A stretch of 64,000 nucleotides of DNA from Bryum argenteum (Eukaryota > Streptophyta > Bryopsida > Bryales > Bryaceae). The notes under the pieces were generated by a model. It was not told the DNA's origin. It made no database searches and was given only the letters and a program-made list of their open reading frames with translations. Made by a program: the position numbers and the translations under genes. The stretch is taken from positions 33,997,364 through 34,061,363 of the forward strand of contig CM073322.1 of the NCBI GenBank assembly GCA_037043015.1. Reading direction: 5' to 3'. Of this stretch, positions 2,487 through 35,416 are shown piece by piece. The stretch's first letter is position 1, and every line of letters starts with the position of its first letter.

Positions 2487-2575
2487 AATGTCATGTGGGC
2501 ATATCATCAAGGGTAGGTCGAACGGGCATTTTATTTAAGCCAACCCCACAAGGGTTTGGTGTTCTTATTTATTTA
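2487..2575 (+). repeat. SINE-like 3' end fragment
   Basis: Matches in reverse complement a segment at 22825-22905. It has a conserved core, GGGCATATCATCAAGGGTAG, then a short stem-forming end (CCAACCC...GGGTTTGG). It closes with a simple T-rich tail of ATTT repeats; the other copy ends in TTC repeats. The same core lies at the 3' ends of the two longer SINE-like copies at 12147-12463 and 22298-22571. The shared end plus a variable simple-repeat tail is what plant SINEs look like. This copy lacks the tRNA-like head. Confidence 0.5.
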
Positions 2576-2650
2576 TTTATAAATAAATGATTTGTAAGGG
2601 GACACCAAAAGGCACAAGCAATTCATTACTCAAAACCGTCAAACATTATC

Positions 2651-3648
2651 TTGACCCAAGTTTATTCCATAAATGTGCCGAATGTCGAAAAACGACATTT
2701 TGGATGGAAGGCAACAACTTTGAAAAGTCATAACTTCTTCATGCGCAAGTCCATTTTGGATGGAATCACTTGGTGTGGGTCTCAAATTAAGTCTAGTTTG
2801 TGTGACAAAATTTGCATACTCATACAAAGAAGTGTCAATTCATGACATGCATTTTAGTGAAGGCAGCTCTTGATTTTGGGTTTTTAAACATGGGGCATAT
2901 TTTACCATTGCAAGCCAATTATGTAGAACTCGAATTAATTTTTCATAATTTTTTTTTTTGCATAAGGATGTTTTCAAGATGAAATCTTACAACTTTGTAA
3001 TAGAAGATTTTTTTATATGAATAGCTTGAGTAGTGGATTTGCAATGATGTTTCTATACTAAACTATTTCAAAGATATGCATGTATGTATTTAAAAAGTTT
3101 TTTCTCCTTCATCCATTGCTTGAATTCAATTCTGTTTGTTGGGTTGGACTCTAATTTGACTCTTGTTATAATTAAAATATACATCTTCAACCCATTTACC
3201 CATCCAAGGTGTGAGAAAGACATGGCATGCATTTCAGTGCAAGGAGTCTAGTCTTGTACAGACTTTTTTCCTTTGTAAATTTCGAGGTAGCTTTCACCAT
3301 CGCAAGGCTATTATTTGAGCCAAGAAATAATTTGATGATTATAATTTGATGATTTTTTTTGGGGATAGGTGTTATTAAGATGAAAATAAACACCTTCGAA
3401 GTTGGTAGCATTTTAACTTCACGGTGAAATGTTGAAATTTTGTGATGTTTTTTGGGTACGAATACATTACGATTTCGCAATCTATGAGTCCTCATGACTC
3501 AAAATTTGACCTACATGATGTACAATATGTATACTACAAGATTGTACAACTGAAATTTCAAAAATTTACCTTTAATTTTTATTTCCATCAATAACACTTT
3601 GAGAAGGTTTCTCTTTTGCTCCAAATGAGTCAAACCATTAGGGGTTAA
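2651..3648 (+). mobile_element. TTAA-type inverted-repeat element, copy E4
   Basis: A 998-bp copy closely related along its length to 32300-33280. Both begin with a CGAAAAACGAC hairpin within about 50 bp of the left end, and share many internal blocks, such as the stretch around 2880-2930 and the one around 3470-3540. The right end reads TTAGGGGTTAA and the left end is eroded to TTGACCC. There is no open reading frame of coding quality, so it is a non-autonomous DNA-transposon relic. Confidence 0.65.
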
Positions 3649-3922
3649 CAGTTTGTTGAAATGAAAATAGACTGGAAAAATCTCCCTGTAGAGGAAAATG
3701 TGTACATTCATTTCATTTAGAGAGTGTTCTAAATGTGTACCTAATGCTTAATTCCATGTGGTCAACATTGAGCTATACAAGTTTGAATTACGATTGAATT
3801 ACAGACACGTACTTAGTCTTGCATTAATCTCCCTAGTGTTCATATGATGATTACATATGACTTTCAATCGGAGAACAAGACCGGTACTGTAGGGGCGGGT
3901 GTTAAAGGTTGATGGAAATGAC

Positions 3923-4105
3923 CTCGCCTTTTCGAGGGATGGAAGCAAGTCGTTGCAAACCTGGCCTCAGGGCAAATACTGGCGGGAGCTCTCGCATCAC
4001 CTTTAATGGTTTTCCCTTGTAAGTTGTAACAATCAAGCTGTTAATGGGATCCAGGGTGTCAGGGTACCGCTGAGGTAGCAAGATTTTGTCCACAGGCCAC
4101 ACAAT
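3923..4105 (-). CDS. orphan exon-like stretch, unrecognised
   Basis: A GC-richer island of 61 open codons in an AT-rich setting. It is bounded by an acceptor-like CTAG at 4109-4106 and a GAG|GTCATT donor-like site at 3922, both in phase 0. The translation has the texture of a real protein: LLPQRYPDTLDPINSLIV, then TYKGKPLKVMRELPP, then ALRPGLQRLASIPRKGE. I do not recognise the family. No neighbouring exon was found with certainty; the weak candidate near 1044-1170 on the same strand lies beyond transposon copy E4. It could be one exon of a gene with repeat-filled introns, or a captured gene fragment. Confidence 0.4.
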
Positions 4106-5718
4106 CTAGGCTGATAGATTGAGAATATATATGCCTGGGGGTGAAGTCTTCGGGAAGTCAAGTGCATACAAATGTGGCTGAGATCTATCTCCCCCATGGT
4201 ACTTCAACAATATCACATGGCCTGCCTCTTTGTACCACTTGCCTATTCTGGCCGGGTGCCTGTCCCTTTAATAATCATCATGTTTCCATGTTTGAACCCA
4301 CTTTTTTTACCCTCCCTGCATGTTGTCATTACTTTCGTGCACCAGAGAATGTTGACAATTGGTAGAATTTAGTTGCCAACTGTTTTCCTTCTTGCATTCA
4401 TGGCTCGTAGGATTTACTTTGGTCACTGTAATTTTGAATATCTAAAAGTATAGTATGTCATTCACTCAGGTGAGGTGTGGTACCGAGTTCATAGTCTAAT
4501 CCCATCAGGCTGAAGCCGACTGAAAGACATGATGTGTACCTTGTTGGTCTCTGACCACCATCAAGCCCCAGTGCCAAGAGCTGCATGCAACTTGGGGGAT
4601 ATTATCAAACTTCAAATTTGATAAATGGGATTTTCACATCTCAAAAACTAAATCACAGGTTGGGAAGGTACCTGTTGCTGCATTTGATCTATTAGCAGAG
4701 TTTTGGGATTTTGGGAGTCAGTCAGTGGTTTTTTAATCAGAAGTAACTGACACTGTATGAGCTCTGAGATCTTTCTCAGGGCCTGGTAAACTGCAAGCCT
4801 AGGAATTTAGATCTTATCAGCCCATGTATTATCCATCAATGGCTAATACCTACAGTCCACCATCCTGGTGACGTGGCGCCAGCATTCTCCGCAACACCAA
4901 CTGAAGCAAGTGGGTCAGCTTGACAAATTGCTGCAGAAAGACTCCACCAGTCGATCATTCAAATATAGTATTACAAACAGTAGGTATAAAAATTAAACTA
5001 TATAATATGTCTCCATGACATTGCAAGGAAGCAGAACCAGATAGATGCAGCATGGACTCGAGGCTCCAACAACAAGTCAACATATGAATAATTCCATCAT
5101 AAACAATAGCAACACATTTGCATTGCAATGGAGGCCTGTACATTTTGGAGGTGCTGGTACCGTAGCTTCAATGGAAGTGGGAAGAGGAATAAGTACTATC
5201 ACCTCGAATCTAACTTGAAGATTCTATCAGTGAGCCTATGTACGTAGTAGCGGATTGAAGCTAAAGTTTATCTAACCATCGGCTGATCTAGATAATCTGC
5301 TATAGAGTATTACTGTACAGACGGTGAACAATAACGAAGATTGAAGCAAAAAAAAGATAAATTGATTGGCATGCTTTGGTTCCTTCGAAGCGCAAGGCTA
5401 GCTTCGATCATCACAAGCAAAGAAATTGAGATAAGAACTAAATTCGCGGCGGCATGTAGAGATGATGAATGAGAGATTGTCTGTACTTGATTACGATACA
5501 AAAGATTGGCGGGGTGGCGGAAAGGGGAGATGTTCGGAGTTTGAAGCCAGACGGGAAGGAAGAAGCTCACGGGATGTCTGTCTCTCGTTCTCACACAGAC
5601 ACAAAATTGCTGCAGCCAGGCTGTGGAAGCTCCTGCATGACAGCCCAAACGGATTGCATGGTTTGTCGACGATTTTCCCTCAAAACTGTGGCCTCCAAAA
5701 GGGTGATGGCCTCCGATC
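4106..5718. other. intergenic, includes probable bHLH 3' UTR
   Basis: No gene recognised. The part just below 5719 should hold the 3' UTR of the minus-strand bHLH gene. Open frames across 5310-5876 are Ser- and Arg-rich products of antisense or UTR sequence and carry no domain. Confidence 0.5.
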
Positions 5719-7153
5719 TTAATGACAAAACTGCTCTTGCATTGCATCTGCGAATGCATGATTGGCATCAGTCGCCCATGAAAGTACAGCTTGCTGCTGC
5801 TGCTGCTGCAGCTGCTGGGAAGAAGCTGCAGTGTGGTGAAGCATTGACGTCGGTGGCGCTGGCCATGCCTGAGCACAGTTCAAGTCGAACGGACGCACCA
5901 AGCTTGACTGCTGAAATGCTCGAACGTCGCCATTGTTGTTGGTTCCTATCTGCTCCAACGTCTGCGATAGATGAGAGACCCATGGTCAATACCAGCAGCT
6001 CGATTGCTTGATTCACAAGGAAAAAAGCGTCGGTCGAGAGATCATGCAGTTGCAGTAGAAGCGACAGTTACCTGGAGTTGAAGCTTAAGGAACTTGACGT
6101 AGTGGATGGCTTCGTCGAGCATGGACGCCGTGTCCATCTTGGTCCCGCCGGGGACCAAACGCTGCAGAACGCGGATGCGGTCACTGATGCGCTCGCGGCG
6201 CAGGCGCGCGGCCACGCTCTGAGGGTCTTTGGAGATTCGCACGTTGCGTCGCTTAGGCCGCGTGCTGGCGATCTCCTCCAAGCTGGGGACAGGCTGCGAG
6301 GCGTGACGGAATAGGATGGCACGCATGCTCGCGAGCTTGTCCATGTCTACCACAGGTGGGCTGCAACTCCCGCCGGGCAGAAACGGAGGCGGCGGTGGCA
6401 TGGTGAGCGCGGCGTCGAACGCCATCTCCCCGGGAAACGCAGAGATGTCTTGCACTTTGGATATCTTGGAGCGATGAATCTGCTCCATCCACTCGCCCTC
6501 CGTGACCTCCTCGTCCAAGCGGCGCTTGAAGCAGCAACCACCCTGTGAGTCTTCGCTCTCACGTAGTGCGTTCGGCGACAGAGGCCCGCCGGGGCTGAAA
6601 AAGCCGGACTCATGCTTGAGCGACGTGCCCGTGCTTGCGGTGCGGTCCAGCATGCCGGTATCCAACACGGACGCCAAAGGGCCACCTCCAAGCGCCGCGA
6701 TGCAATTGATTTGCAGATTCTCCGGCGCCGTGTTGCAATCGTCGTCGCTCGTCGAGTCCACCATACTGGAGCTTTTGCTGGAGTTGTTGCTCAAGAGCGA
6801 GTGGGTTGATTCTGGTAACAGCGCATTCTGATCGGCATTGGCAACGAATGCTTGCATCAGCGCCTGCTGCTCCATTAACTGTGGAAACATAGACTGCGAT
6901 GGTGGGTGCGAAAAGAACATTGAGCCCTCCAGCATGGGCTGATGCTGACTGCTACCCCATCCAGAATTCGACCTGCACACGCACAAACAAAGTTGCACGT
7001 GAGTTCGTCGCTCATCTCAAATAATTCTCAGCAGCAAGAAAGTTGCCTCCGATAATACACGAAACACAATTGCACGACGGTTCGGCGTAGTTACCATTTT
7101 TCAACGGAACCCAGACCGCCGCGATCATCAGGTCTCTGCAAGCTAAGCGTCAT
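5719..7153 (-). CDS. bHLH transcription factor, class VIIIb (HECATE/INDEHISCENT-like)
   Basis: Three exons on the minus strand, 7153-7095, 6972-6072 and 5961-5719, give 400 residues with GT-AG introns in consistent phase. The bHLH domain is at about residues 258-320. Its basic part reads [19 protein letters not shown] and helix 2 contains [19 protein letters not shown], the hallmark of the HEC/IND group. As in that group, Ala stands where canonical E-box binders have Glu, so DNA contact is probably atypical or through heterodimers. The N-terminal half is low-complexity (Ser, Asn and Gln runs, a Pro run near residue 220), and a Gln run lies near the C terminus. The second intron falls exactly at the end of helix 2. 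In angiosperms the family directs fruit, style and meristem patterning; in other land plants its roles are less known. The start was chosen because the short first exon ([13 protein letters not shown]...) splices in frame into the second. Confidence 0.88.
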
Positions 7154-8453
7154 CGCGATGATGTCTAAACGCTGCAATCAATAGTGTCTGATTGTGCACC
7201 CGGAAACTGCGCGCGAGGCACTAAAACCCTTTTCGATCAATAGTGACGAGCATGCACCATTGCGCGGCGTTAGCGCTCGTAGGGGAATCGACTGTTTCTT
7301 GCAAGAACGATTGATCCAAGATCATGTAATGCAGATCATCGGCTACCGTCCGAGTTCCAAAGATAATACTCAGCGATGGATCACAGACAAGAGCAGATCC
7401 AAGAGCATTGTGCTGGGGACTGGCAATGGCGCACAGATCGAGATAATCAAGCTCCAGGCATGACAGCCATTCTGGTGAAGCTACTCACTCTACGACGCAA
7501 CCAGCTCAGCATAATCTTGAAAACTCAGGAAACCCAATTGCAGTGCTGAGGCCCAACAACAGCAACAACAGCTTACAGCGGGGAAGGGGAATAATAAATA
7601 ATAATAAGTAAATAAGAGAGAGAGAGGAGGGAAGTGGGAATGCACGGCACAAGGAGCCTGGAGGTGGAGGCTGGTGGGGTGGCGATGGAGGAGGAACGGA
7701 TTTGGAATTGTGCCTCGAGAAACGGAGAGGAGGCGGATCTTTGGGCGAGCGAAGCTTTTTTAGGGGAAAGACGTCTCGCAATTTATTTATTCACTCGCGC
7801 GGCTGCTCATTCTTGGCCGACGGGGAGCCACGGGCAAACCCTATGGCCGTGGCTGGGCCCTCTACTTTCGCTGCTAAAGCTTGGGGAGTGTCAGAGAGCG
7901 ATTATAGAAACAAATCGGCATGAGGCGTGATCAAATTAACAATTCGTTGTGGGCCTCGGTTCATCCGGGTGATCATTGCTCTTTAATTCATTCCCTGCCT
8001 AGCTCCCCTGGTGGGCTCGGCCATAGGCCCGGCCATTTCGTATGCTTTCCCATTCTGGGGGGCCGGTGCACACCCCCTCATAAATTACACGAGGCTGATG
8101 ATGCACTCTACAAGCGGAGGGTAGCTGCCATGCTATGCTATGCCGTGCTAGCCCCCATGCTTGGAACCCTGCATTTTCTCTCTGAAAGATCAAAAGACGG
8201 CTGCCTGCTGCTCCTGCTCCTTCTTACTGTACCTGGTAACTGTAAGTTAACTCCAGTGGAGGACACTGGCCACGTAAAATTCCTCGAAGTTGCAATAATT
8301 ATCAACTGCCACTTCCTTGGATTCATCCTGCTATTCCATTCGTTCAAAACTTTCCCTTCGATCGTGTGTGTCAAGCCACTCACTCGTGCACCACATGTTC
8401 AATTGGGCATCGAAATTGGAGTTGGAATCCAAACCCAAAACTTCACCAAGCTA
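7154..8453. promoter_or_regulatory. upstream region of the bHLH gene
   Basis: Non-coding. On the bHLH strand there is a CT-rich tract (GA-rich on the plus strand, 7616-7640) about 470 bp upstream of the start codon. This fits a pyrimidine patch near a plant transcription start. No TATA box can be assigned with confidence. Beyond about 7930 the sequence is ordinary intergenic DNA. Confidence 0.35.
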
Positions 8454-16035: not shown

Positions 16036-16308
16036 TTCACCCCTAAATTTTCCTTGTTGCAAAACGGTCTAAGTCACAAAAAATGACCTTCCTTTAGATT
16101 AAGCTCAAAAAATCTCAATCTAAGCATTATTTAAGAGATTCAACCGTAAGATCTCAAATTTCACTTGACGTGCTTCTCACATACCAAATTTGAACCGTTC
16201 ATTCTTCCTCATTTGTGAGATTATGATGGTCAAAGTTGACTGAGTTTTTCTCCGGCGGGAACCTCCAAAACCCGTTTCAGGTTTTAAGGAGAGTTAGGGG
16301 TTGAAGGG
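16036..16308 (-). mobile_element. TTAA-type element copy E8, internally deleted
   Basis: In reverse complement it matches the right part of the element at 19676-20609, including CTCACAAATGA, AACGGTT and ATCTTACGGTT in order. Both ends survive in eroded form: TTCACCCCTAAATTTTCC on the left and GGAGAGTTAGGGGTTGAA on the right. At about 270 bp it is a MITE-sized derivative of the 1-kb family. Confidence 0.55.
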
Positions 16309-19675: not shown

Positions 19676-20609
19676 TTAACCCCTAAAAATCCAGGAAAAC
19701 CGATTCGGTTTTCTGAGATTTCGGGCAGCTCATTTTAAGCATTTAAATTGATATTTTTGCCTAAGATTTTTATTGGGTGCTCCCCATACAGTAATGTGTA
19801 TGTGTTAAAATTTTCAAAGTCAAATTTTAATTTTATAACCTTCATCTAGAAATTTTAGGTTTCAAGTCCAAAACGAGCAGTTTAAAATATTTTTTTTAAT
19901 TTTTTTTTTTAGAAATATGTTCATTACCAAATTACTATTCAAATTCCAAAGTGCCCGAAGTCAAAAAGTTTACCAATTTTACAAGGGCAGCCTCCAAAAC
20001 TTTCAAAAACAATCTTCACAATTTCTAGTAATTTTACAATTTTTTCTTTGAAAAATTGCCAAAATTCGAGATTTTGGATTTTTTCCAAGATTTTTTTTTT
20101 CGAAATTCACATTATCATAAATGCACCTTCTCACCATCGAGATTTTTCTCAAACTAAATATATCATACGTGGTGCTTGTTTTACTATATGGTTGTTTTTA
20201 GACCTTCTTTCATAAAATATTTTACATTAAGGTCAAAAAGTGGAATCGGTCTCTAAAATTTTGCATGAGCATACCCAACTTGATTACCTACATGAAAAAA
20301 AATGAGGGAAAAATATTTGGAATAAGAATCATCAAGTTGCCCTTGGCACCATTTAGACAATGCCTCTCACGCAGCGGCAAAAAAAAAGTGTTGGTCAAAC
20401 TTTGATTGTTATGATCTCACAAATGAAAAACATCCAACGGTTGAAATTTTGACCAGTCCTTTGTATACAAGTTAGGTACAAGATCTTACGGTTCAAAGTC
20501 TAAAACCAGAAAAAGAAGTTTCTCCATTTCCCCATCTCCCAATGAAGGTGAAAAATGGCAGTTTTTGGTTCTGGAGGTCGAGGAAACCCCTGGATTTTTA
20601 GGGGTTAAC
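19676..20609 (+). mobile_element. TTAA-type inverted-repeat element E1, whole
   Basis: Perfect terminal inverted repeats of 20 bp including the TTAA, TTAACCCCTAAAAATCCAGG at both ends. Outside the TTAA the flanks differ, apart from one base that keeps the symmetry. That is what a TTAA target duplication gives. Total length is 934 bp with no coding frame. Interior blocks recur in copies E8, E9 and E6. TTAA duplication with CCC-starting termini is typical of piggyBac elements (established for that superfamily). The assignment here is inferred, since no transposase is present. Confidence 0.75.
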
Positions 20610-23361: not shown

Positions 23362-23954
23362 TTAACCCTTAATCGTCACGGGTGACCAAACTGGTCACCA
23401 AGGTCATTGTTTTTGCTTTTGGGGTCCGACACAGTGGTAGGGTGCAAATATTGTCCAAAGGCACCCCCATTCTTTTGTTTTTCCGAATCCAATGCTCCTT
23501 GCCGATCGCCTTATTGAGGTTTGTGTGATCCGCGCGAAATTGTAGGGGCCACGTGATCCCATGGTCAATGCTCTTTGACTTGGCCTTTCTTTTTATTTTT
23601 TTGACGATTTTTTTCCAAAATAATAAAAAGTCTTGATCTTTATCCCTATACCATGCTCTATGATGCCAATTTTCAGAAAAAATGATCCAAAGGGGGAAAA
23701 ACTAAAAAAGCAATATGATATTTCTCACTCATGATCAACAACCAAAACATTTTCTTCTCACCGGTGCCATTTTTTTAGTTTTTACCCGATGTGATTGATC
23801 TTTTTTGCATTGGTCACATCACCAAGTTACCTTGATAACCACCGTTTCCGATTCTCAAAATTGTTTTACCTTTAGTGCAGAAATAAGGCCAGAAGACAAT
23901 GAGGTTGCATTTCTCTCCAATTTGTGAAAAACAAGGATGTCAATTAAGGGTTAA
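23362..23954. mobile_element. TTAA-type element F, CCCTTAAT termini
   Basis: The ends are TTAACCCTTAATCGTCAC and, inverted from the other side, TTAACCCTTAATTGACATC, with 593 bp between outer TTAA edges. A perfect 8-bp-arm palindrome, GGTGACCA/TGGTCACC with a 3-bp centre, sits at 23381-23399 just inside the left end. Non-coding. The interior does not obviously match E1 to E10, so it is a separate subfamily. Confidence 0.65.
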
Positions 23955-30699: not shown

Positions 30700-31110
30700 T
30701 TTGATTCTTTCACTTTTTTCATTCTAAAAACATCATTGCATAACCAATACCAAAGTAACGTGGATCAATAAAGCTCCAACTAGAACGTTGTTGGGATGAA
30801 TTTAAAGATCATGATCATATAAAAACAATTCCCTCAAAAACAATTGTTGGTTTCACATAATTGGCTTGCAATGGTAAGACATGCCTAATGTTTGAAAAAT
30901 CGAAACCAAAAGCTGTTTTCACTAAAATGCATGTCATTAATACTTTATACTATAGGTTTGCAATTTTTGTTACACATACTGGACTTAATTTGGGACCCAA
31001 AGCAAGTAATTTGGCCCGAAATGAAGTTTGGATGAAGGAGTTGAGGCTCTTCAAAGTTTTGCCCTTCTTCCAAAATGTAGAAAAACGACATTGGGGACGT
31101 TTAGGGGTAA
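30700..31110 (-). mobile_element. TTAA-type element copy E5, truncated
   Basis: In reverse complement it begins TTACCCCTAAACGTCCCCAA and follows the element at 32300-33280 through the hairpin, the AAGAGCC block and the GGTATTGG...ATGATGTTT block. Similarity is lost near 30700. The outer TTAA has decayed to TTAC. Confidence 0.55.
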
Positions 31111-32141
31111 AAGTTGGAAATATGGGTGTTCCTAAAATGGTGCCTTAGAGTAACCCCCTATAATGTTTGGAGTTAATACATGCTATTGTTGTATGCCAAA
31201 GCTATTATGTACCTGTAGGTGAAGATTACTAGAGCTCTATTTTCGGTACCGCACGATTATTGGTTGTTCTACTATACGGACATTGTAATTTTCTCACTTA
31301 CCGGTAGCAAGAATTTGTGAGGTTATCAAAAGACTAGCATTGGTTTTCCCAATTTGTAGTGAAGTATATAGTGTAAGTAGTTTTCATGAATGGAGATAGT
31401 AAGTGGAAGGATAGTCAAAGTGGCTTCACAAATTTTTGGCTCTTTGACAATTTGCTATGAATTTTTGAAGTTGGACTTATATGTGTTTCTAAATTGGTGC
31501 CCTTATTTGACACCCTATAATGTTTGGCATGACTACATGGTGCTGTTGACTTTGAAGCTATTATGTACGTGCGGGTTAAGAAGCCTGTAACTCCAATATT
31601 GGAACAACTCCAATTTTAGCATTCTCCCTTGAGACTATTATTAGTTTCTTCTATCCTACAAACTTGTTTATGATCAATTGGACATTTCACGTGAACATGC
31701 CTAAGTATTTCTAAACCGCTTTACCTCTTGAAATTAGGCATGAAGACGAAAAACTGCCCCTAAAGTTTCAAGGCACTATTTGCATGCTTATCCCTCAAAG
31801 CTGCTCTCTTTTAATGCAAGGTGAAAATTTTCATCTCATGATGTATTGTGAAGTATGTAACCATAGGATCTAGTACTTAACTTTTATAAGATTATGTACA
31901 CCAATTTTTGAAAAAAGTTCCTCACCGATTGTGAGATCATAACATTTAAAGTTGGAAAAAACTTTTTTTTGCTTGTGAAAAGAGAAAGCAATGTTTTGAG
32001 GGTCAAAAAAACCATTTTTACCATTTTAGAAGTAAATATGAATTAAGGCTCTTCAAATTCTTGTTCCTAGGTGATCTAGGAATATCTCTATGCAATTTTT
32101 ACTCTCATAGGACCCTTAACACCTAAATAAATGCATTATTT

Positions 32142-32268
32142 TCCACGTGGAGGTACACTAAAATTCAAATGCATAGGCATGTTCTTGTTAATAAAAAAGG
32201 CATTTGAAAATTCAATGCTTTGAAAATCCAAATAGTAAAGACATGCCTTAGTACCTCTACTACGTGGA
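32142..32268. repeat. inverted repeat inside element E7
   Basis: CCACGTGGAGGTACACTAA on the left faces TTAGTACCTCTACTACGTGG on the right about 125 bp apart. It is probably a small MITE or foldback insertion. Confidence 0.45.
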
Positions 32269-32299
32269 CAAGAAACAAAACTTGAAAAAAAGAAGATTC

Positions 32300-33280
32300 T
32301 TAACCCCTATACGTCCCTAAAGTCGAAAAACGACATTTTGGATGAAGGGCAGAAACTTTGAAGAGCCATAGTTTCTTCATTCAAACTCCGTTTTTGACGA
32401 AATCACTTTTGTTAGGTCACAAATCAAGACTAGTTTATGTGGTAAAAATTGCAGACTCATAAAATAAAGTATGAATAAATGGCATGGATTTTAGTGAAGG
32501 CAGCTTTTGTTTTTGGGTTTTCAAACATTTGGCATGTTTTACCATTGCAAGCCAATTATGTGAAATCTAAAATAGTTTTTCATGAATTTTTTTTTCATAG
32601 GTTTGATATTTAGATGCATCCCAACAACTTTGTAGTTGGGAGTTTTTTGATCTAGATAACTTTGGTATTGGCTTTGCGATGATGTTTCTACGATGAAAAA
32701 AGTGAAAAAATGGATGATTTTTGAAGAGCTAGATCTCCTTCATCCACCGTTAGATTTTGACTTTATTTTTTGGGATTGATTCCAATTATAGCCTATTCTT
32801 AGTGGTAGAAACCCTGACCCAATCGAGAATGTATTGAAGAAAAGGCATGGATTTGAGTGCGAGGGGTCTAGTTTTGGACTATCTTTCCTTTGTAAATTTT
32901 TTGGCAGTTTTCACGACTACAAGGCTACTATTTGAGCCAAGATGTTTTTTTGATGAATTTTTTTGGTGCAAGAGTGTCTTCGAGATGAAGATGAACAACT
33001 TTCTAGTTGTTGATTTTTTGATTGCAAATTTCATGTTGGTAGTATTTTCACTTCAAAGTGGAAATGATGGTATTTTGTAGCTTGTTTTGCGCACTAATAT
33101 GTTATGTTCTCGCAATCTATGAGGTCCCATGAGTCAAGTTTTGGTCCACATGATCTACTACAAGTCTATTACAAGTTTGTACGGTTGAGATCTGAATAGC
33201 TTATCTTTATTTTCATCTATATCACTTTTTTTGAAAATGAGTTTTTGGCTAAAAATACCCCAAGGACGTTTAGGGGTTAA
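32300..33280 (+). mobile_element. TTAA-type element E3, whole, nested in E7
   Basis: 981 bp. The ends are TTAACCCCTATACGTCC and, inverted, TTAACCCCTAAACGTCC (one mismatch in 17). A CGAAAAACGAC hairpin follows the left end. The sequence on either side, joined through a single TTAA, restores continuity with the related copy at 33571-34570. So the TTAA was duplicated on insertion. Non-coding; close relatives are E4, E5 and E10. Confidence 0.75.
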
Positions 33281-33570
33281 TTCTTGGTGAATTTTGAAGT
33301 AAGTGCTTTCTCATCAAATTTGGGTAGATTTTGAGAACAAATGAACATATACCACAAATTTTGAACATTTTTGGGAAGATTTTAAGTAGTTTCTTCAAAC
33401 TTTGACCATGCATATCTCCTAAAGTATGAGGAATTATGAGAAATTCTGAGGCATGTAAAAGGTATGGAAAAGCTCTACAACCGCAAAAGGTTTCAAAATA
33501 ATGTGAACAAAACGAAGTAACTTAGAAGCAGATCTTAGCCAAATCGGCCCAAAACAGGTCTTATGATACC

Positions 33571-34570
33571 TTGACCCCTAAAGTTGGTTGAGGACATGTT
33601 CGTTTTTACTTTTGTCGGTCTCTTATTTCCTAATTTTAGCTTGTACAAATTTAAATTTTTTGCAGATTGTACAATTCTAATTGCAATTCTTCCATACCTT
33701 TCCAAAAAGTCATTTCACACTTCAAAATTTCTTAGACTCTAGGAGATATTCACGGTCTTAGTTTGAAACATTGTTTGAAATTTGCCCAAAATTGCCCAAA
33801 CTGCGGTATATGCTCATTGATTCCCCAAATCTGCCCGAAAGCAATTAAAATGCAGAAATCTGAAAAATTCACCAAAAATTGAATTCCAAGTTTTGGTCAA
33901 GTTTTGTTTTTGGTACGTGTGAAGAAAGTTCTAAGGCATAGTTTCACCACTCAGATTTTCAATCCAATTATTTTTCATTAGCTGATTTTATTGTCAAAGG
34001 CTCGCCTTTGTACATGAATTTTAGCATACCTCCATGTGAAAATTCAAGAATCCCTTTGGTTTCATAGGTTGCATGTGCGTAAAACTTGCACTAGCATGTT
34101 CCTAATCAACTCACCTAGGGACAAAAATTTAGAGAGCCTTATATCAAATTTTCTACCAAAAATGGTTTATTTGGTCCTCAAAAAACTAGTCACCTTTCAA
34201 CAACAAGGGGAAAAAACTTTATCTCCAACTTTGAATATTACGATCTCACAATTGATAAGGGATTGGAATGTGAGATTTAATATGCACATACAAACACAAG
34301 CCAAGTACCAAATCCTATGTCAACACACCTAAAAATTTGTCAAAATTTGAAAATTTTCACCTTGCAACAAAATAGGGTAACTTTTGCCAGGTTGAATATA
34401 AACTCTACATACATACTAAAATAGATGGGCTAGATGGACTAAATAATAGAACTGCTTCATTAATTCTAAGAAATGCTTCTATGTATTTTGGAAAGACGCC
34501 TAGCACTTGGTTGGTTTTGCAGTTTTAAGACTTACTGGCAATTTAGAGGGCAGTCGACTTTAGGGGTTAA
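33571..34570 (+). mobile_element. TTAA-type element E2, whole, nested near end of E7
   Basis: 1000 bp. The left end is TTGACCCCTAAAGTTGG and the right, inverted, TTAACCCCTAAAGTCGA. It appears to sit in the TTAA that lies within the CCCTTAA terminal repeat of E7. No coding frame; related to E6 and E7. Confidence 0.65.
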
Positions 34571-34576
34571 GGGTAA

Positions 34577-35416
34577 AGCAATTTTGGCCTAAGAGAGTCT
34601 TACTGTTTTTTTACAGAGAGTTGTAATAAGATAAATTTGCCCAAGAACCCAACTATGGACCTCTATGCTGTACAGTACAAGTACATTGTAATAAGTATGA
34701 AGTACAGAGATCTAAGCTAGATTTACATATGGCAAGTGCTCGAGTGTCCATGAGGTGCTGTAGATCAGTCGGTGCACGAATTTATGGAATGTTCATCCTG
34801 CATGTTATCCTTCATGTTGGTCTTCCGGTCTTCCCACGAATGTACTGTATGTACATTCCTGTACTGATTCAAATTCTGCACACGTAGTTAGCTTGAGACT
34901 TCTCATGCGCGCCTTCTCATGAACAATATGCACAGCATTGTAGCACATGGTGCATCCAACTGTACCAAGGGCAAGTGTTTGTATCTTGTTCCTCATGAAC
35001 TGCACGTGGTTGCACATGCTTGCACCTCCCCTCGCAAGCATCGCCATGCAGCTGAGGTGCTCCTACTACTAACCGACTTCCTCGATGGTGGCTGGCCGCT
35101 TTATTAGGACACAGCCTCTGAATCAACACAGCAAGCATTCAGTGTGGAACGCTATATTTGAATTTCCAGCTAGAATTAGGATTCCTAGTTTCATGCTGAA
35201 AATTGTGACTCCATGCTCTGTTTCGTCTCTCTGGAGAGCTCTGTGTGTGCAGCAACGAAGAGTCGGTTTCTGTGAACCACTGGCCACGAAGGTAATGCAT
35301 TTGGTGTCGTCTCGATTTCCCTGCTTCCATTGATTCAGTCATGTGGGTCGATGCGTTGCTAATGTAGATTCTGTGCTCTACAGTTTAGAGACGTCAGATT
35401 AAGCACTCGGAGCTCC
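34577..35416. other. upstream region of the hydrolase gene
   Basis: Non-coding. The last 400 bp are GC-richer than the repeat block and presumably hold the promoter and 5' UTR of the plus-strand hydrolase. No core element is assigned. Confidence 0.4.

Follow-up and report, generated by a model that had tools for sequence, protein, structure and literature searches.

The window, by which we mean the whole 64,000-nucleotide stretch of DNA that was analysed, contains three short elements, E7, E2 and E3, nested in one another. We consider it very likely (probability roughly 0.93) that all three are transposase-less members of the piggyBac superfamily that move by cut-and-paste and depend for this on DDE_Tnp_1_7 transposases which the same genome encodes and which act on them in trans. 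An earlier note on this DNA had placed E3 and E2 inside an older element of opposite orientation, E7, and this observation holds: E3 (32300-33280) and E2 (33571-34570) both fall within E7, which is an inverted relative of E2. E7 (31753..34577, + strand) is the oldest of the three and is interrupted by both E3 and E2. Its left tip, CCCCTAAAG, starts at 31757, and its right tip is worn, reading (CC)TTAA followed by GGG and ending at 34573. The target copies of E7 are likewise worn (ACTG at 31753-31756 and TAAA at 34574-34577), such that no duplication is visible. No ORF of at least 150 aa was found inside 31753-34577.

E3 (32300..33280, + strand) is a young, non-autonomous element of 981 bp with TTAA on each side (left copy 32300..32303, right copy 33277..33280). 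It reads TTAA-CCCCTATACG...CGTTTAGGGG-TTAA and has tips CCCCTATACGTCC and CCCCTAAACGTCC. Scoring of the best 40 out of 10,008 first-look candidates revealed 39 further loci that carry E3 at 95-97% identity, and all eight copies that were read at the sequence level (the window copy and those at loci L002-L008) have TTAA on both sides. In the window itself an E3-like copy lies at 2656-3648, and a partial E3-like copy, inverted with respect to E3, at 30704-31111. For an empty-site test the 60 bp to the left and the 60 bp to the right of E3 were joined with no TTAA, with one or with two, and the products were aligned to nine uninterrupted relatives, namely E2, a copy on contig C3, another on contig C9, and the copies at loci L039-L044. 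The single TTAA gave the top score in 9/9 relatives (a single TTAA led two TTAA by 1 point, 56 vs 55, for the C9 relative and by 3 points for E2), and E7 without E3 is collinear with its uninterrupted relatives. E3 thus occupies a site that was empty with a single TTAA. These findings bear out the earlier proposals that joining the flanks of E3 through one TTAA restores the sequence seen in E2, that E3 therefore duplicated a TTAA on entering E7, and that the window provides internal empty-site evidence for TTAA targeting.

E2 (33571..34570, - strand) belongs to the family of E7 and is inverted with respect to it. It reads TTGA-CCCCTAAAG...CTTTAGGGG-TTAA, and its two target copies, TTGA and TTAA, now differ by one base. 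An insertion of about 120 bp within E2 (about 34388..34508, approximate limits) is not present in relatives. Once E2 and one of the target copies are taken out, the site reads GATACC-TTAA-GGGTAAAGC, which is in ungapped register with the right end of the family. When compared with the family end CTTTAGGGGTTAA, the rejoined right end of E7 matches at 10/13 positions in eight of nine relatives and at 9/13 in the remaining one. The register and the 10/13 match make it probable, and not certain, that E2 occupies, as had been suggested, a TTAA belonging to the right terminal repeat of E7 itself. We entertained the idea that E2 instead landed beside E7, either in a flanking target copy or after E7 had lost its tip. 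The right tip of E7 is indeed worn, the match stops at 10/13, and by chance 4 of the 568 TTAA sites of the window (both strands) score equally; against this, no gap disturbs the register with the nine relatives, and the two halves of the tip can be read to the left and to the right of E2. Landing beside E7 is thus, in our judgement, improbable, at something like one chance in five.

The left part of E7 and E2 are inverted relatives, and the two could on that account be read as the long inverted arms of one fold-back element in which E3 is the sole insertion. We rejected this reading, which we regard as barely credible, because solitary copies of the E2/E7 family exist at six loci (L039-L044) on five contigs. 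Moreover, E2 has two ends of its own, and the register of E7 is kept across E2. Both tips are visible in five of the six solitary stretches; the L042 stretch begins inside the element. Some of these copies have further features at their ends. At one end of two E2-family copies (L041 8-49 and L043 899-929) there are two CCCCTAAA tips 30 bp apart, as if an element had landed beside an older end or had extended it. At the opposite end of the copies at L039, L041, L043 and L044 there is a related block, TTAGGAGATATTCACGGTCAAAGTTT (one base variable), 160-170 bp from that end, and this block is perhaps the partner of box2, one of the two subterminal boxes described below.

The insertion order E7, then E2, then E3 agrees with the nesting. 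Among the best 40 of the 3,157 candidates for E2, the scored copies are 73-80% identical to it, and the best relatives of E7 among the sequences compared are about 70-72% identical. E3 appears to be the youngest, its order relative to E2 being judged solely from similarity to sibling copies.

We searched the whole window for end pairs of the form TTNN-CCC...GGG-TTNN, 150-3000 bp apart, with no more than 3/12 TIR mismatches and target copies at most one base apart. Five pairs were recovered, corresponding to E3, E2, 19676-20608, 23362-23954 and 16036-16304; E7 was not recovered by this search. The element at 19676-20608 is 933 bp long and has TTAA on both sides and a TIR match of 16/16; its box2 lies 186 bp away from the right end. 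Likely members are found at 23362-23954 (TTAA/TTAA, tips CCCTTAAT) and at 16036-16304 (TTCA/TTGA, CCCCTAA tips, box2 177 bp from 16036). Malectin_like and HLH domains also occur in the window, and together with the view taken in the earlier note they are the ground for provisionally regarding the host as a plant.

A search of the same genome (258.8 Mb, 25 contigs) with the PF13843 (DDE_Tnp_1_7) profile gave 775 first-look candidates and at least 116 domains, with matches only on contigs C1-C11; the same profile gave no match in 14 control genomes, whose identities are not stated. All 116 scored matches passed the cut-off, none with an E-value worse than 1.4e-69; a stop is absent from the match in 93 of them, 23 have one or two, and open frames with a match run to as many as 1331 aa. 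Twenty of the 116 loci were read in detail. Nine ORFs of 867-1331 aa (L021, L024, L025, L027, L028, L029, L032, L033 and L035) were scanned, and each of the nine was identified as piggyBac at E 1e-74 or better. The catalytic aspartates (DDD) are present in 13/13 aligned ORFs, and D537, D628 and D745 are invariant in 10/10. One ORF compared to the PDB matched piggyBat (3e-27) and piggyBac (4e-25), with its DDD triad aligned to those of 6x67 and 9c0f, and the predicted model of this same ORF has a fold nearest to these two structures (E 1e-23, 21-24% identity). The mean pLDDT of that model is 54.7; it is 80-95 in much of the catalytic part and below 50 in residues 1-351. The first C-terminal CxxC is found in 11/13 ORFs (it is missing from L017, which has a shorter frame, and altered in L033), whereas L025 has a degraded second C-terminal Cys motif, which some other ORFs have in altered form. 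On the features that were examined, these coding elements are members of the piggyBac superfamily. The DDE domains fall into six lineages that are 35-47% identical to one another: A (L017, L021, L027, L031, L033 and L034), B (L024, L030 and L032), C (L025), D (L028), E (L029) and F (L035). In the nine scanned ORFs about 370-850 residues ahead of the DDE domain have no Pfam match, and this region is disordered in one model.

A young 5.7 kb family of coding elements comprises seven copies that are 98-99.9% identical and have ends CCCCTAAAGGCCCA. Its frames vary: the long 909-aa frame is found only in L021, shorter frames are found in L017-L019, and the frames of L020, L022 and L036 are split. 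Six of the seven copies are flanked by TTAA on both sides. The seventh (L018, G000:C8:13519200-13529100, element 2553-8252) has the non-canonical target TTAT on both sides, which shows that the duplication is of 4 bp and not of 3 bp. Apart from this one TTAT/TTAT case, and from the worn or diverged target copies of E7 and E2, the target duplication in what was read is TTAA.

At 16 of the transposase loci (the 20 minus four extra copies of the young family) we searched both sides of the ORF for TIR pairs with TTAN-CCC tips. The best such pair had no more than 5/16 mismatches at 15 of the 16 loci and no more than three at 11 of them, and all 15 pairs have TTAA on both sides even though the fourth base had been left free; no TTAN-CCC pair was found around the L026 ORF. 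Two controls were used. When the wrong end (GGG) was required, a pair was found at 4 of 14 loci, with 7-10 mismatches, so that this control discriminates, with few candidate ends. When ends were paired across loci, 100 of 182 pairings had five or fewer mismatches, and this control does not discriminate, given that the families have tips in common and that the flanks are dense with short elements. Given the cross-locus result, the pairs with 4-5 mismatches (L029, L030, L034 and L035) are insecure. CCC-starting TIRs are thus found at E3, at E2, at the left end of E7 and at 15/16 transposase loci.

At L031 (2315-8683) a transposase-coding element (2499-8256) is inserted at a TTAA within an E3-like element. 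A single TTAA gave the best empty site in seven of eight E3-like targets; the eighth (L036_a) did not align. An element that encodes DDE_Tnp_1_7 is in this way tied to TTAA duplication at the level of the base. The proposal that termini starting with CCC, together with a TTAA duplication, mark these elements as piggyBac is thereby supported by transposase genes that have such ends and, in 13/13 ORFs, the DDD residues. Likewise, the suggested search of the same genome for a full-length DDE_Tnp_1_7 relative with matching ends was positive, and no autonomous relative of another class was found among the loci read, the transposase with such ends being piggyBac. (Note that none of the 20 loci read has a coding element with the exact tip of E3, and that L035 has only the first 48 bp of E3, at 81% identity.)

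Besides the tip, two blocks recur near the ends of these elements: box1 (AACCGTAAGATCTTG) and box2 (TTGTGAGATCATAAC, running to GTTG). In lineage A, both boxes are present at the ORF-3' end in 5/5 cases, starting 115-116 and 186-190 bp from the end and spaced by 71 bp in four elements and 75 bp in one; at the 5' ends of the same lineage they are found in 0/5 cases. At the left end of E7, box1 (AACCATAGGATCTAG, 31859..31873, + strand) matches at 12/15 positions, and box2 (TTGTGAGATCATAAC...AAAGTTG, 31929..31954, + strand), which starts 70 bp after box1, matches at 15/15 positions in its core and at 24/27 in full. In E3, box2 (TTGCGAGAACATAAC, 33101..33115, - strand) lies 165 bp from the right end and matches at 13/15 positions, and box1 (AACCGTACAAACTTG, 33172..33186, - strand) is nearer to that end, at 94 bp, with a spacing of 71 bp to box2, and matches at 12/15. 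E2 has box2, displaced by its own insertion, and no box1 scoring above 10/15. The 3' end of L035 has box1 only, and the two boxes are absent from the 10 ends examined in lineages B, C and D (L023, L024, L025, L028 and L032). Of 2000 random pieces of 400 bp drawn from the window, 19 have both boxes at 60-80 bp spacing; the window's own copies contribute to this null. An alignment of 15 ends gives a majority-base cover of 0.96 for the tip, 0.88 for box1, 0.88 for box2 and 0.62 elsewhere; because 14 of its rows were picked for box2 (E7 was added), only box1 and the spacing are independent. The two-box signature, with its spacing of 70-75 bp, links E3 and E7 to one transposase lineage (A), and the boxes are putative transposase-binding sites.

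The boxes bear on the idea that the short elements belong to another superfamily that targets TTAA or TTA/TAA (PIF/Harbinger, Kolobok or Sola3) and share their CCC tips with the coding elements by chance. TTAA targeting is not unique to piggyBac, being found also in Kolobok and Sola3, and what E7 and E2 have in common with the coding elements is confined to short blocks of about 40-56 bp, with little more in E3. Against this, tip, box1 and box2 occur at near-fixed spacing in E7, in E3 and in the DDE_Tnp_1_7 elements of lineage A, and the TTAT on both sides of L018 gives a 4-bp duplication for coding elements. PIF/Harbinger elements make a 3-bp TTA/TAA duplication; no such duplication was seen, since L018 is flanked by TTAT/TTAT and a single 4-bp TTAA restores the register. 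We therefore give membership of another superfamily only a slim chance.

If the three elements are piggyBac passengers, then DDE_Tnp_1_7 transposases from the 4.5-8.4 kb elements of the same genome would act in trans on E7, E2 and E3. Cutting at CCC tips and joining to a staggered TTAA are established for piggyBac. A resident transposase would here excise the passengers at their CCC tips, and an excised passenger would be joined to a staggered TTAA, with one TTAA presumably left on each side. E7 would have inserted first, E2 would have entered the TTAA in the right tip of E7, and E3 would have entered a TTAA in the body of E7. Lineage A is the likely source of the transposase for E7 and E2, and E3 was likely moved by lineage A, as its boxes suggest, or by lineage F, as suggested by the first 48 bp that it shares with L035. 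Some copies may be active today.

In their DDE_Tnp_1_7 domain, aligned DDD triad and predicted fold, as well as in the C-terminal Cys motifs of most ORFs, TTAA duplication and CCC-starting tips, the elements described here resemble known members of the piggyBac superfamily (piggyBac, 6x67/6x68; piggyBat, 9c0f). They differ from these in being only 21-24% identical to the piggyBac and piggyBat structures over the fold alignment, in having an N-terminal region of about 350 residues (disordered in one model), in the length of their ORFs (867-1331 aa in the nine scanned) and perhaps in having two conserved boxes 70-75 bp apart that start 94-190 bp from one end.

The piggyBac group is best known from animals and is seldom described in plants. 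The earlier remark that plant genomes do not usually contain the superfamily is right only in part, as passages from published tables record PiggyBac in land plants. In the passages available, these records comprise 1,230 PiggyBac copies in C-fern (PMC6890710), one copy of 75 bp in Stipa (PMC8319324), a listing among the superfamilies present in all taxonomic groups studied (PMC4438587), a further record in plants (PMC10813416) and piggyBac-type MITEs in angiosperms (PMC10004981). The kind of element is thus known. As excerpted, the angiosperm MITEs (PMC10004981) are like ours in being short and transposase-less, in having TIRs and in bearing the same superfamily label; they differ in that here coding elements with matching tips occur in the same genome and empty sites are available. 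The plant repeat tables (PMC6890710, PMC8319324 and PMC4438587) share with our findings the superfamily label in a plant, but their passages contain labels or counts and no coding, TTAA-resolved elements. Among the top matches in the open-licence literature we found no report of native piggyBac in mosses, which is not proof of absence; in the passage matched from a moss genome paper (PMC10619864), the matching word is 'piggybacking'. Neither many coding, near-identical, TTAA-resolved plant copies nor two-box ends were found in the literature searched.

Tentatively, and at somewhat less than even odds, these observations may together reflect an extensive piggyBac radiation, recently active and comprising at least six transposase lineages, in a plant, possibly a moss. 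Its passengers would be recognised through a shared end code (tip, box1 and box2, on the transposase-3' side), which would enable a single transposase lineage to move passengers of several families. In that same reading this would be a plant-adapted system with an end architecture that is not described for animal elements. If the host is a plant, its genome would naturally supply piggyBac transposases with a recent history of working in plant nuclei. The shared boxes would make it possible to test directly how passengers are recognised by a piggyBac transposase, and copies so nearly identical would allow recent transposition to be tested between individuals.
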